Assembly: GCA_026874595.1 (NCBI GenBank)
Contig: CM049312.1
Location: 24,173,956-24,237,955, forward strand
Length of the DNA: 64,000 nucleotides
Source of the DNA: Sipunculus nudus
Taxonomy: Eukaryota; Annelida; Sipuncula; Golfingiida; Sipunculidae
Direction: 5' to 3'
Shown: positions 2,162 through 49,760 of the stretch, one piece after another
Position numbering within the stretch: position 1 is the first letter of the stretch
Layout of the letters: each line of letters begins with the position of its first letter
The notes under the pieces: generated by a model
Told to the model about the DNA's origin: nothing
The model's database searches: none
What the model saw: only the letters and a program-made list of their open reading frames with translations
Position numbers and translations under genes: made by a program

Positions 2162-3198
2162 CTGTTGAAAAGATATTAATATTAATATATGGGAGATATA
2201 TACATATATAATACAGTTGTCTACAAATATTTTGTCCACAATTTTATTTGAAGATTCAAATCCCAATGTACATATCCGAAACGATATTCTTCGAACCGAA
2301 GGACAATCACTTCAATTGTAAACACGAGATGATGCAGTCAGTATAGTCAGGCAAGGCCTGTTTTAGCAGTTGGTAAGACGGTGTAAACAAACATAAGAAT
2401 TTGTCACCAAGAATAAGTGTAAAAAAAACTAAAAACTCATCATGACACGTTTTAGATAGTAAATTCATGACAACAACAGTAAAAACTACAGAAGTTACTG
2501 TTGTTTTGACCTGAAAACCATTCCGTTATTCTGCCTGTCAGCGCCGATCCAGATCCCTCGTCGGCCTCCGATCTCGTACACGGCTCTGTTCTCGTCGGCA
2601 CTGTGGATGGACACCGCGTCACTCCCGTCTCCGTAGTCCCGGCAGACTCTCAAGTAATGATTCCAGTCAAAGTTGTTTCCGTCCAGTTTTCTCATGCACG
2701 TTTTCGTCTCGACATGAAGTCTCCAACCGCTCCCGGGACAACAGCAAGTATCAGTCACAAAAGTCTGACTGGTCACTTGAACATAAGACAATCAGAAATG
2801 GCAAACTAATATGGAGTGGTAAACAGAATAAACTCCAAGTGGAAACTGAGATTTAGAAAGCGGATAATGCTTAATTTAATGACTGTATTAATTTTACTTT
2901 TGGAATGTGTATTTGTATCAGTTGACGGTGACCGGGACACCAGCAGTGACAAACGTCTGACTGGCCACTTAAACAACAGAACCACACAAAATATCCAAAT
3001 ATATTCTTGAAGCTGATTGAAATAAATATAAGTAGAATTAAAAATTTAAACTCTAGTAGCTTTTCCTTTGAGCTGTGTTCTAGCGTATTGCGTAATTGTT
3101 TATTATGTTTTATCAACTCTGCAATGTTACTTGAAAACATTTTAAAGTTACAAACCGTATCCTGCGTGCAGTACAGCCGCAAACAAAAGGATCAGCAT
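1966..3198 (-). CDS. secreted C-type lectin, EPN/WND type (CTL-1), 3 coding exons
   Basis: Spliced gene read on the minus strand: exon 3156-3198, exon 2511-2775, exon 1966-2161. The 504 nt encode 167 aa plus a TAA stop. Residues 1-14 (MLILLFAAVLHAGY) form a hydrophobic signal peptide, so the protein should be secreted. The rest is one long-form C-type lectin-like domain: a CCCPGSGW start, a conserved CRDYGDGSDAVSIHSADEN block, WIGAD, then EPN (residues in GEPNNF), EEC, QWND and a C-terminal PCRD..GVCKK. In this family EPN plus WND mark the calcium-dependent mannose-type sugar site, so Ca-dependent glycan binding, probably in innate recognition, is inferred. Splice junctions are CAG|GTCAAA and CAACAG|G between exons 2 and 3, and TACG|GTTTGT and CAAG|TG between exons 1 and 2. 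The last acceptor is the least certain, since a CCAG lies 6 nt further in; I chose the one matching the phase-1 intron of the paralogue at 21.7-24.5 kb. Confidence 0.85.
2511..2775 (-). CDS. CTL-1 middle exon (first half of lectin domain)
   Basis: Encodes TSQTFVTDTCCCPGSGW and then the alpha-helical part of the CTLD up to NGMVF. It ends at the donor CAG|GTCAAA. Over the CRxxGDGSDAVSI and NExAVYEIGGR blocks it is closely similar to exon 22214-22469 of the second lectin gene. Three adjacent cysteines precede the domain, one or two more than a typical CTLD. Confidence 0.88.
2931..2990 (-). repeat. duplicated copy of CTL-1 exon-2 acceptor and exon start
   Basis: On the plus strand this segment closely matches 2731-2790, which is the 5' end of exon 2 plus its acceptor. 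It lies in the intron about 200 bp upstream of the real exon. It keeps an AAGTGGCCAG acceptor-like site and a QTFVT-like reading, but lacks the CCC motif and soon reaches a stop. Confidence 0.75.
3156..3198 (-). CDS. CTL-1 signal-peptide exon
   Basis: ATG at 3198 opens 14 hydrophobic codons and one extra base, then the donor G|GTTTGT. The ATG directly follows a pyrimidine-rich tract ending in AAAG, which looks like the acceptor of a 5'-UTR intron. Length (43 nt), phase and context match the corresponding exon of the second gene (46 nt), which is why I accept so short an exon. Confidence 0.75.
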
Positions 3199-15279: not shown

Positions 15280-15960
15280 GTTGCTATTATGGTTTGATAC
15301 GATTTTTCTTCCAGATGAAAACATCGGTCTAGACATAATGTTCAACCAGTTATCATGGTTAGTTCTTGATATATTGAAGAAAGTAGAATTATCATCAATG
15401 GCGGCGCTAATTTGCATATCAAAATTTAAAATACGGACTCAACCATGACTATTATGGATTCATTTGAATCATTGACTATGAAAACCATGGTGTAGACAGT
15501 ATGTCCGAGCAATCATCATGATTAATTCTTGATATATTGAAGAAAGTAGAAGTATCATCAATGGTGAACCAAATTGCGTATCAAAATTTAAAATACAGAC
15601 TTAGCCTTTACTATTATGGTTTCAATTGAATCTTTGACCAAAAAAAAAAACCTAGGTGTAGACACAGTGTTCGAGCAATTATCATGATTATCTCTGGAGA
15701 CATTAAAGAAAGTAGAATTTCCATTGATAGCGGCCCTTATTTGCTGTTAAAATTTAAATAAGGACTAAACCGTTGCTATTATGGTTCCATTCGAATTTTT
15801 AACTTAGGAAACCTAGGTCTAGGTACGATGTTGAACCAGGTATGTTGGCTAGTTCTGGAGATATTGAAGAAAATAGAATTTTCTTCTATTGCGGCGCTAA
15901 TTTGTATATTACAAAAATTGCTCAAGGTCGTCTTGAGGACAACCCATCTACAAAATATCA
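15280..15960 (+). repeat. ~162-bp tandem repeat, about four units
   Basis: Units recur with landmark TTGATATATTGAAGAAAGTA or its variants at about 15366, 15527, 15693 and 15857, each followed by a TCAATGGCGGCGCTAATTTG-like block. The spacing is 160-168 bp. The last unit is the most similar to the inverted copy at 14384-14660. Confidence 0.8.
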
Positions 15961-20735: not shown

Positions 20736-20940
20736 TCGAGGAGCGTGATGGATAGGGCGCTGGACTTGTGACTGCAGGGTTGTGGGTTCGCGTACCATTC
20801 TGACGCTGTCTGCGCTAAGACTCCTCGCCCAGGTCATTACCACGAGGGTGCGCTCTTTCGAGTGAATGGATACTGGTTTCAGCCGTTTCTTGGAAATGTG
20901 ACCTTCATTTATACTTTTAGCTTGAACTTTTACTGACATG
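20736..20940 (+). repeat. tRNA-derived SINE-like element
   Basis: A-box-like TGGATAGGGCGCTGG at 20749-20763 is followed by GTGGGTTCGCGTACC with the B box at 20784-20794. The 30-40 nt spacing is that of a polymerase III tRNA promoter. A GC-rich body follows to about 20900. The 77-codon minus-strand frame here is antisense to it and is not a gene. Confidence 0.6.
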
Positions 20941-21676
20941 AGCCTTAGCGTCTGAGTCGTTTAAAGACACTAACAGTCCATAAGCCGAAGAATGTAGATG
21001 ACGGGGCTGTTTGAACTTTATGGGCATTACGGTTACAATGTGATACCCGAATAAAGATCCGCTTTCACTCAGTTGGCCTAGAGGATAAAAATCCAATATA
21101 TCAGAGAAAAATTATATAAACAACACAACTAACAATATTCAAAAAGCAAATTGAATAACACCACAAAAACAGTCTTTATTTCTATTCCGATTCGTGAAAA
21201 ATGGAATCAGCCTCAACACAGTTGACAGTTATTGCCGGTCTTGGCGGCTGAAAAAAAGATTAGCTAGTTACACATTCATCTATACCATAACATCTACTAA
21301 AACATCATTATTAAGAAGTCACTGGAAGTAAACGATTTCCAACCAGTTTCTATTATTGATGCGCATTTATTGCTAGATATCCACATGATTTCAGAGATTG
21401 TGTGCAGAGCATATCATGTGAAAGTATTCTGTTTACATCATTGTAAATTTTTGCACAGAAAACATTGTTTAGCTCTTTGATTACACTATTTTATCTATAA
21501 TAGTGAAAATACGGCATACCCCACCTGAAGAGAAGCCTCGTAACAAGCATTCGACAAGGTTGACCAACCTCTTCATAATCAGTATATGTTCTTCATAGGA
21601 AGTTGCATTTAAATGCCACAACGATCATTACAGTATTAATTTGTGACAGTACTGAAATCTTAATCTCCTACAGCAA
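20941..21676. other. CTL-2 downstream region / 3' UTR
   Basis: Downstream of the CTL-2 stop on the minus strand. Candidate AATAAA signals on that strand lie at about 21366-21371 and 21176-21181, so the 3' UTR would be roughly 300 or 500 nt. Nothing else recognised. Confidence 0.4.
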
Positions 21677-21854
21677 TTAAACTTTACCTTTTTTACAGAC
21701 GCCGGTGTGTCTGTCCCTGCAGGCGATGTCGTTCCAGTTGTCCCGTCTTCCGTGGATACCGTCAGCCATTACAATACATTCCTCGTTACCAAATGAGTTA
21801 CTTGGCTCTCCGGGTGCCCATTTTGTGTAGTAGAAGGGGGAGCCATCAGCCCAC
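21677..21854 (-). CDS. CTL-2 terminal exon (second half of lectin domain)
   Basis: Begins G TGG GCT GAT GGC after TTTAAG, completing an AGG codon. It encodes WADGSPFYYTKW, APGEPSNSFGNEEC, NWNDIACRDRHTGVCKKGKV and TAA. It aligns with CTL-1 exon 1966-2161 but is shorter between EEC and WND. Confidence 0.88.
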
Positions 21855-23442
21855 CTTAAAATTTAGAAACTGACATTACACATAAAAGAATATACCTTTT
21901 TAGACGTAACTTAATACCCCTATCTTTCTTGAGCGGAAAATTGCTGATTATGGTCAAAGGTTTGTGTATATTCCTTTTTTTTCATTTTTATCTATGTACA
22001 TATGACGGTAAAGTGAACAGCGATCAGGTCTCAGATATACAAGGATAATAAAACGATGAGGAGGTGTACTAGATCTCCTGCGGGCATGCTGTACTAGCTT
22101 TTACGGATGTTTGACGTTACGTCGTTGGTTTTGATAAAATCGTGTAAAACCAAAGAGTTTAAACGTTTTAAAGGCGATGAGCCTTGAACATATGATTTCG
22201 AATCTCGTCAGACCTGAAGCTGCGTCCATTTCCTTGACAGTCACCACCGATGTAGATGTAACTTCTCCCTCCGATCTCGTACACAGCCTCGTTCTCGTTG
22301 GCATCTTCGATGGAAACTGCGTCACTCCCGTCACCGAAGGAACGACAAGCTGCAACGTACTCGTTCCAATTGTAACCGGTTCCTTCCAACTTCAAATAAC
22401 ACCTGCCAGTGTTGAGGTTAAGTTGCCAGTTACCAGTACCACAGCAACACTCGTCCGACACAAACTGGCCTGTAAATATTATAGAAATGTTAAGAGCAAA
22501 ACTCGTCCGACACAAACTGGCCTGTAAATATTATAGAAATGTTTAGAGCAAAATTCGTCCGACACAAACTGGCCTGTAAATATCATGGCAAATGTTAACA
22601 GCAAAATTCGCCTTGAACCAACTCGCAAGTGCATATCATTGACAAAAGTTATAAGCAACACTCATCCGAAAAAAAATTGCCCTGCCGTATACGAATCAAC
22701 AAGAGCTTCTCAAGGGAACTATATATTTACAATCGCAGAGCGATCCCAAGGGAGTTAAGCCCCCCCCCCACCAGGACATCTAACCCCGTTCTCTCCCAAA
22801 GTTACCCCCAAAGAGCATAAATAGTAAATAACTTGGAAACGATGTGTAACTAGAAAATTAGTAAACAATTAAAATCTCGACCTCTGACTGTTTCTGACTG
22901 TTAAAATAAGCTAAACTTGGGATCTAACATAAATAAGCATTTTGGTAATCGATGGTTTATCACACTCGCGACTTCAGAATTCAGAAGTCAAAAAAAAAAA
23001 CATGATTAAATATGGAGATGGAAAAAAACTCATCAACCCCTATAAGCATCCCCTCCCTTCGGATGGAGGTTTCAATACAAACTCGTCTGCATATAGTAAT
23101 CACAGAGAGCCGCCAAACACGACCACCAGAAAGACTTTAAATCTTTAAAATCTGGCCTTATTATTCAAATTCACATTTGGAAATTACTAGAAACAGCGGT
23201 ATGCAAACTGCATCCAGTGTACATACAGTAAAAGATGTATGCATATTATGCATTTTTTTTCATAACTTCAAGAATTATATAGAAAAAAAGGCCCAAACGG
23301 CTATAGATTGCATGTTATCAAAAGAACTGGTGTGCAAGCACTATGCCTGTTACAGAGAACAAGATAAAAAATAATGCATTTGCCAAAAAAACCTACCTTG
23401 GCCAAGGTGCAGCAGAGCTGCCAATGCGAGCATAAGATACAT
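21677..23442 (-). CDS. secreted C-type lectin, EPS/WND type (CTL-2), 3 coding exons
   Basis: Spliced minus-strand gene: exon 23397-23442, exon 22214-22469, exon 21677-21854. The 480 nt encode 159 aa plus TAA. Residues 1-16 (MYLMLALAALLHLGQG) are a signal peptide, so the product should be secreted. A single C-type lectin-like domain follows: QFVSDECCCGTGNW, CRSFGDGSDAVSI, NENEAVYEIGGR, IYIGGD, then W.DGS, GEPSNSFGNEEC, NWNDIAC and TGVCKKG. WND, a Ca-site motif, is intact, but EPN is EPS here, a change in the sugar-contact loop that could alter specificity. All junctions are standard: CAAG|GTAGGT, TTTACAG|G, TTCAG|GTCTGA, TTTAAG|G. Phases equal those of CTL-1 (1966-3198), so the two are duplicates about 18 kb apart in the same orientation. 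The last codons contain AAG|GTAAAG, which resembles a donor; I treat the exon as terminal because the protein is complete. Confidence 0.88.
22214..22469 (-). CDS. CTL-2 middle exon (first half of lectin domain)
   Basis: Starts with GCCAGTTTGTG after the acceptor TTTACAG and ends TTCAG|GTCTGA. It encodes QFVSDECCCGTGNW through GNGRSF. It is the CTLD half carrying the two alpha helices and is the most conserved part between the two genes. Confidence 0.9.
22452..22700 (-). repeat. 52-54 bp tandem array of the CTL-2 exon-2 acceptor
   Basis: Units start at 22452, 22504, 22556, 22609 and 22663. The first is the real exon-2 5' end with its acceptor. The next two are nearly identical and keep TTACAG|GCCAGTTTGTGTCGG, so they are potential competing splice acceptors. 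The fourth and fifth are decayed. Because 52 is not a multiple of three, use of an upstream copy shifts the frame and hits a stop (GAGTTTTGCTCTTAA). Confidence 0.9.
22701..23396 (-). other. CTL-2 intron between signal-peptide and lectin exons
   Basis: Rest of the ~930-bp intron. Several short plus-strand frames occur here, none with coding support. A C-run lies near 22760. Confidence 0.6.
23397..23442 (-). CDS. CTL-2 signal-peptide exon
   Basis: ATG at 23442 follows directly after the strong acceptor TTTTTGTCTCTTCAG. It encodes 15 residues plus one base and ends CAAG|GTAGGT. Joining gives GGC CAG across the junction, in frame with the lectin exon. Confidence 0.85.
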
Positions 23443-36254: not shown

Positions 36255-36660
36255 AATACGTCCGTGTATTGTCATGTACTTAATGTGTAGTTGCAATTTT
36301 CAAGTTATTTCATGTGTAGCTGTGCGTTGTTACGTATTTTATATATAATAATGTGATGTCACATATTTGATGTGTATTTGTGTATTTTTACGTATAGGAC
36401 ATTTAATTGTGTATTTTCATGTGACTTGATGTGTAGCAGTGCGTTGTCACGTATTAGCTATGTAGTTATATGTTTTCACGTAGCTTGATATGTAGCTGCG
36501 TACGTGTTGTCACATATTGATATGTAGCTGTGAATTGTCTGGCAATTTAATGTTTCGTTGTGTGTTGTCACGTGTTTGATGTGTAGCTGTGTATTGTCAC
36601 ATTATTTCATGTGTAGCTGTGTGTTTTCACGGAATTGCCATGTAACTGTTTGCCTTCTCA
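36255..36660 (+). repeat. ~40-bp minisatellite
   Basis: Imperfect repeats around the core TTGATGTGTAGCTGTGTGTTGTCACG, at least nine copies, with variable spacing of about 35-45 bp. Much diverged, so old. Confidence 0.75.
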
Positions 36661-48949: not shown

Positions 48950-49760
48950 ATAGAAAATCACCAAATGTAGTCTGTTAGCCATATTTGATTTTGAGCAAGT
49001 CTGTAATAGACACAAATGACCCCTGCAAACTTTGGAAGGCTTCAGTATGTATGTTGTTGTTGAGTTATCACGCGCGAAAGAAAATCAGCGATTGGGCTTT
49101 GGCGGCCATATTGGAATTCCAGCAGGTCTGTAATTAACAAATAAATTCTGGAGCCCTCATTGGTACCAATCATCCCTGTGAATTTGGGAAAGCTGCAGTA
49201 GGTTTTTGTTGAGTAATCGCGGGCGAAAGAAAATCAGCGATTGGGCTTTGGCGGCCATATTGGAATTCCAGCAGGTCTGTAATTAAAAAATTCTGGAGCC
49301 CTCATTGGTACCAATCATCCCTGTGAATTTGGGAAAGCTGCAGTAGGTTTTTGTTGAGTTATCAAGCGCAAAAGAAAATCTGCGATTGTGCTGTGGCGGC
49401 CATATTGTAATTCCGACAGCTCTGTAATTCAACAGGTCTGGAGCCCTCATAGGTAACAACCATCCCTGTGAATTTGGGAAAGCTGCAGTATGTTGTTGTT
49501 AAGTTATAACGTGCGAAAAAAATCAGCGATCGGGCTGTGGCGGCCATATTGAAATTCAAGCAGGTCTGTTATTTGATAGGTCGTGAGCCCTCATAGGTAC
49601 CAATCATCCCTGTGAATTTGGGAAAGCTGCAATAATTTGCTGTTGAGTTAACGCGCGCGAAAGCAAGTGTCACTGACGGAAAGACGGAAGGACGGATGGA
49701 CGGAAGGACGGACTGACACGGTGATCACTATAGGGCACTTTTTGTCAAGCGGGGCCCTAA
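48950..49760 (+). repeat. young ~147-bp tandem array with GGACGGA tail
   Basis: About five units; landmarks AAAATCAGCGATTGGGC near 49080, 49227, 49373 and 49520. Each carries TGGCGGCCATATTGGAATTC, GGAGCCCTCATTGGTACCAA and CCCTGTGAATTTGGGAAAGC. Middle units are nearly identical; the first is degenerate. The array ends in GGACGGA/GGAAGGA repeats and GGTGATCACTATAGGGCAC...GCGGGGCCCTAATAAA. The minus-strand 65-codon frame here is a product of the repeat. Confidence 0.88.

Follow-up and report, generated by a model that had tools for sequence, protein, structure and literature searches.

A 52-bp tandem array across an intron/exon junction of a C-type lectin gene in Sipunculus nudus, a probable local duplication with redundant splice acceptors

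The creation of splice sites by tandem duplication, whether new or alternative ones, can be regarded as an accepted route, and introns derived from tandem duplication were reportedly described by Zhuo in 2007. Tandem duplication as a source of introns has been reviewed (PMC3443670) and was found in Drosophila (PMC2891723). In human ABCA7, intron 18 holds a VNTR with a 25-bp unit that starts with the exon-18 donor; when the donor of the next unit is used, 25 nt are kept, the frame is shifted and a premature stop results (PMC5954066). The minisatellite of the human interferon-induced gene IFI6 (6-16) (Turri 1995) carries several splice donors (PMC4526556). In potato, a tandem duplication over the intron-1/exon-2 boundary of an RdRp gene made a new intron by means of a cryptic GTAAG donor (PMC4974935).

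The C-type lectin gene CTL-2 of Sipunculus nudus carries a comparable structure. A 52-bp tandem array was detected with TRF at positions 22443-22658, on the minus strand, across the intron-1/exon-2 junction of this gene; positions are those of the window, the whole 64-kb stretch of DNA that was analysed, at 24173956-24237955 of its contig. The locus resembles ABCA7 in that the true splice site lies inside a short tandem repeat and use of a neighbouring copy would retain one unit, shift the frame and lead to a premature stop. In ABCA7, on the other hand, the repeated site is a donor, the unit has 25 bp, alleles range from about 12 to 427 copies, and the isoforms were seen in RNA; the CTL-2 array can be described as the acceptor-side counterpart of that VNTR. 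The repeat units of IFI6 also carry splice sites and serve as alternative sites, as those of CTL-2 may; the IFI6 sites are donors, and three mRNA species were reported. The duplicated potato block crosses an intron/exon boundary with branch site, polypyrimidine tract and AG, as does that of CTL-2, but its cryptic GTAAG donor led to a new intron, whereas in CTL-2 no comparable donor was seen by eye and the outcome would be alternative acceptors. The usual intron-gain model duplicates an exonic AGGT, while the block duplicated in CTL-2 carries a real acceptor. Repeats carrying splice sites are thus already known, and CTL-2 reveals no new mechanism. Literature on tandem duplication or repeats and splicing, on NAGNAG and unproductive splicing, on splice-site proximity and on mollusc C-type lectins contained no such C-type lectin array among the matches listed, as judged by title and beginning of the abstract.

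The gene model of CTL-2 was built from the sequence, and only frame-compatible splice sites were considered (in all motifs given here, a slash marks a splice boundary). Its coding exons are as follows.

23397..23442, minus strand: coding part of exon 1, with the ATG and a signal-peptide-like stretch, ending in CAAG/GTAGGT in phase 1 (pattern search).
22214..22469, minus strand: exon 2 (spliced reading frame, Lectin_C match).
21688..21854, minus strand: exon 3, second half of the lectin domain (spliced reading frame).
21213..21247, minus strand: putative exon 4, final coding residues and stop; the frame runs on past a CAG acceptor to the stop, a prediction from the sequence alone.

The spliced gene encodes a protein of 167 aa with one Pfam Lectin_C domain (PF00059; E 1e-14), the score of which (55.6 bits) is above the Pfam gathering score of 22.6. 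Among solved structures, those nearest in sequence were C-type lectin domains from lymphocyte antigen 75 and from mannose-receptor kin. Intron 1 has 927 nt and intron 2 has 359 nt.

Each unit of the array consists of about 27 nt of the intron end and 25–27 nt of exon, as the earlier note on this DNA had recognized when it described a unit spanning the intron end, the 3' splice site and the exon start. None of 200 mononucleotide shuffles of 22300-22800 produced a TRF array with a period of at least 20. Five copies, named c1 to c5 from the true site upstream, were distinguished.

22443..22469, minus strand: c1, the true acceptor of exon 2 with the first 27 exonic nt, which belong to the repeat (TRF, copy alignment, spliced CTL-2 reading frame).
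22470..22521, minus strand: c2, upstream copy with the acceptor TTACAG/GCCAG and first exonic base 22521; its use is predicted to add 52 nt and to give a stop after 25 aa.
22522..22573, minus strand: c3, upstream copy with intact acceptor and first exonic base 22573; its use is predicted to add 104 nt and to give a stop after 46 aa.
22599..22656, minus strand: c4, decayed copy that has lost the acceptor AG; the stretch is given as aligned and overlaps neighbouring copies by a few bases.
22654..22684, minus strand: c5, the oldest-looking copy, partial; its exonic part is alike at 23 of 28 positions, and a CAG lies one base out of register.

The array had been placed at 22452..22700 in the earlier note, a range that starts about 9 bases too late at its 5' limit, since the array begins at 22443, and that does include the outermost copy, c5, which ends near 22684. 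The acceptor TTACAG/GCCAG is intact in c1 (first exonic base 22469) as well as in c2 and c3, so that the claim of at least two intact upstream copies stands.

With the copies in register on the acceptor, c1 and c2 match at all but 2 of their 52 positions, and the 23-mer from -20 to +3 is identical in both. No model confined to 20 intronic and 3 exonic nt can distinguish between the two. In c3, the core ATATTTACAG/GCCAGTTTGTGTCGGACGA is the same as in c1 and c2 and the differences lie further upstream (12 of 52 positions against c1 without gaps, fewer with one gap); more than one copy therefore carries the site in register, the cores of c1, c2 and c3 being identical. The weakest copy is c5, diverged and with its nearest AG, a CAG, out of register; its match was equalled by 0 of 500 shuffles when the junction served as query and by 10 of 500 when the whole exon did. 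A position weight matrix made from 25 paralogous acceptors gave -3.8 to both the true site and c2 and -10.0 to c3, and was uninformative, with other AGs ranked above the true site. A second CAG lies 5 nt past the true acceptor (ACAG/GCCAG/TTT, 22464-22469) and makes a close tandem acceptor, out of frame if used; this CAG, five bases inside exon 2, scored 5.7 with the same home-made matrix.

The explanation that we favour, and consider likely, is a minisatellite-like local tandem duplication of the splice junction that left redundant acceptors and, as a by-product, some unproductive splicing. A short duplication, by slippage or unequal exchange, would have happened to span the intron-1/exon-2 junction and would have been repeated more than once, c4 and c5 appearing old and decayed and c2 and c3 recent. 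The gradient of divergence, from 2 of 52 differences between c1 and c2 to the decayed c4 and c5, was counted in favour of repeated local duplication. With c1 as the real exon-2 start, c2 and c3 may act as alternative 3' splice sites, as each comes with an AG, a T-rich tract and what resembles, by eye, a branch site. Splicing to c2 or c3 would make exon 2 longer by 52 or 104 nt, respectively, and bring in an early stop, and decay of the mRNA would probably follow. Competition of c2 and c3 with the true acceptor is plausible because the whole 23-mer around the site is common to c1 and c2. The array itself would be without a selected function.

In the 1.43-Gb assembly (153 contigs), a search that skips simple repeats and very common words located the array sequence at a single position. 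It thus does not look like a mobile or satellite family, and a dispersed repeat was rejected as its source; the compared loci matched only where they cover the CTL-2 array itself. A search for relatives in viral_contigs gave 5 pattern matches, none of which was confirmed. Other tandem arrays of the window are located at 15318-15909, 36264-36631 and 49049-49663, with periods of about 166, 29/59 and 145 bp, and these three long arrays had no match to other compared loci (E 1e-5). Positions 20740-20880 resemble what we take to be the head of a tRNA-derived SINE, and no tRNA gene was detected in the window with ARAGORN.

As a special case of local duplication, c2 and c3 may be hardly used at all, with exon definition favouring the acceptor beside the full exon and the array inert; we regard this as possible, if doubtful. 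Both introns of CTL-2 are long, which would place exon 2 in the 'exon definition' class, and among equal human 3' sites the upstream preference is significantly weaker where the introns on both sides are long (PMC9225289). The upstream copies, moreover, hold just about 27 nt of exon-like sequence. The same source, nevertheless, describes an overall upstream preference for competing human 3' sites at least 20 nt apart (PMC9225289), c2 is the same as c1 around the site, and human data may not transfer to Sipunculus nudus. Considering the identity of c1 and c2 around the site together with the reduced upstream preference in human genes with long introns, such as both CTL-2 introns are, we infer some use of c2 and c3 and not dominance.

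Regulated unproductive splicing, in which the upstream acceptors would be kept as decoys and would divert a controlled share of CTL-2 transcripts into decay, seems improbable to us. It could draw on the identity of the c1 and c2 acceptors over 23 nt and on the position of the predicted stops, 276 nt (c2) and 265 nt (c3) before the exon 2/3 junction. A stop well before a later exon junction is the usual rule for nonsense-mediated decay, and the predicted isoforms fit it. The shift of frame into a stop, also claimed beforehand, was reproduced in the prediction; the control extensions likewise carry stops. When 52 nt taken from each of the other starts in intron 1, outside the array, were placed before exon 2, a stop appeared in 664 of 664 cases, and 104-nt prefixes taken in the same way gave stops in 612 of 612. 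The premature stop of the c2 and c3 isoforms is therefore uninformative, and it was rejected as a sign of function.

The related genes bear on the same question. At least ten related C-type lectin genes lie in tandem, all on the minus strand of the same contig, at 24.116-24.197 Mb (24116135-24196422; protein search), and counts of cluster genes are lower bounds, as 150 of 408 protein-search candidates were scored. CTL-1 and CTL-2 are inside the window and the other eight outside. A comparable phase-1 signal-exon candidate was found by pattern search in nine of the ten genes, CTL-2 included, and this supports the placement of the true exon-2 start at c1. The exception was G03 (about 24134227-24134478), which looks like a pseudogene, given the stop codons in its exon-2 match and the lack of a signal exon in this search.

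For each of the ten genes, some 2.5 kb of sequence before exon 2 was searched for a copy of the gene's own acceptor, with 200 shuffles per gene. Clear copies were present in two, CTL-2 and CTL-1, and none was found in the remaining eight within the stretch searched, which indicates that an upstream acceptor is not conserved among the paralogues and speaks against maintained decoys. High scores in G01, G02 and G06, equalled by 0, 7 and 3 of 200 shuffles, respectively, were due to AT or GA repeats or a T-run and are left out of the tally.

In CTL-1 (window 2775-2967, minus strand), the copy comprises the exon-2 acceptor and the exon start; its acceptor, at 2967, lies 192 nt upstream of the true site (2775), and its predicted use gives a stop after 30 residues. 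This separate case could be taken in support of regulated decoys. The close paralogues of CTL-1, G07 and G08, have no upstream copy of the exon-2 acceptor in the searched stretch, and to the same point their intron 1 measures 208 and 204 nt, respectively, versus 394 nt in CTL-1. An array ancestral to both CTL-1 and CTL-2 was not supported: for the c1 region against intron 1 of CTL-1, 264 of 500 shuffles scored as well, and no copy was seen in G07 and G08. Since these two paralogues have neither the copy nor the longer intron 1, and the CTL-2 unit is unmatched in the CTL-1 intron, the copies in CTL-1 and CTL-2 most likely represent two separate duplications.

Other junctions of the cluster genes (exon-2 donor, exon-3 acceptor and exon-3 donor; n=30, 100 shuffles each) gave one clear copy, on the exon-3 donor side of G04, and two further matches, in G06 and G02, scored no higher than the best shuffle and were left out of the count. 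The copy in G04 is a near-copy of about 33 nt, not more than 600 nt downstream. Copies at two of ten exon-2 acceptors versus one of 30 other junctions represent a mild excess (Fisher p 0.15), which could be counted for regulated decoys and against the favoured explanation, as a hint that this junction is in some way special.

Tandem arrays are, however, common in the genome. In 60 kb from 12 random stretches of the same contig, 15 TRF arrays with a period of at least 20 occupied 12.6% of the sequence, much of it in two stretches. In the window 5 arrays accounted for 2.9%, and in 52 kb of cluster sequence 2 arrays accounted for 0.9%; array density varies widely between the sampled stretches, and cluster and window give the two lowest of the three figures, which weighs against the favoured explanation. 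Without the CTL-2 array, about 1.8% of window and cluster is array, from which about 0.7 overlaps would be expected over 40 junctions without selection, by rough arithmetic in which TRF arrays and the copy search are different criteria. The acceptor AG, furthermore, is lost or shifted in the old copies c4 and c5, and c2 and c3 are probably too young for their intactness to indicate selection. The proposal of the earlier note that lectin output is regulated through unproductive splicing is thus unsupported, given the non-specific stop, the eight genes in which no copy was seen, the decayed older copies and the abundance of arrays.

A broader idea, which we consider highly improbable, is that exon-2 acceptors of the cluster are repeatedly duplicated, as in the CTL-2 array and the separate CTL-1 copy, and that copy number sets the unproductive share of each lectin transcript. 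If true, copy number would act as a dosage control of clustered immune lectins, one that evolves fast and varies in length. Resplicing, in which exon 1 joined to c3 or c2 would form the GC-type-donor-like CAAG/GCCAGT, the unit would be removed in a second step and the c1 mRNA would be restored, is hardly credible: the junction GCCAAG/GCCAGT has one mismatch (+3) to the GC-donor consensus AAG/GCAAGT, but a C at +3 is rare in donors, the junction is by eye at best a weak GC donor, and 52 nt is near the lower size limit of introns. The comparable boundary-crossing duplication in potato did make a new intron, with a cryptic GTAAG donor at its disposal (PMC4974935), whereas no good GT donor was seen by eye in the 52-nt unit.

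Taken as local duplication with redundant acceptors, the CTL-2 array has the look of a commonplace accident in which DNA was duplicated locally, not of an established switch. The duplication, recent and on the acceptor side, offers a clean natural case in which two sites share 23 identical nt, and could serve to measure, within one gene, the choice of the spliceosome between equal acceptors 52 nt apart. CTL-2 also shows how a genome rich in repeats can burden a gene with sites that are potentially unproductive.
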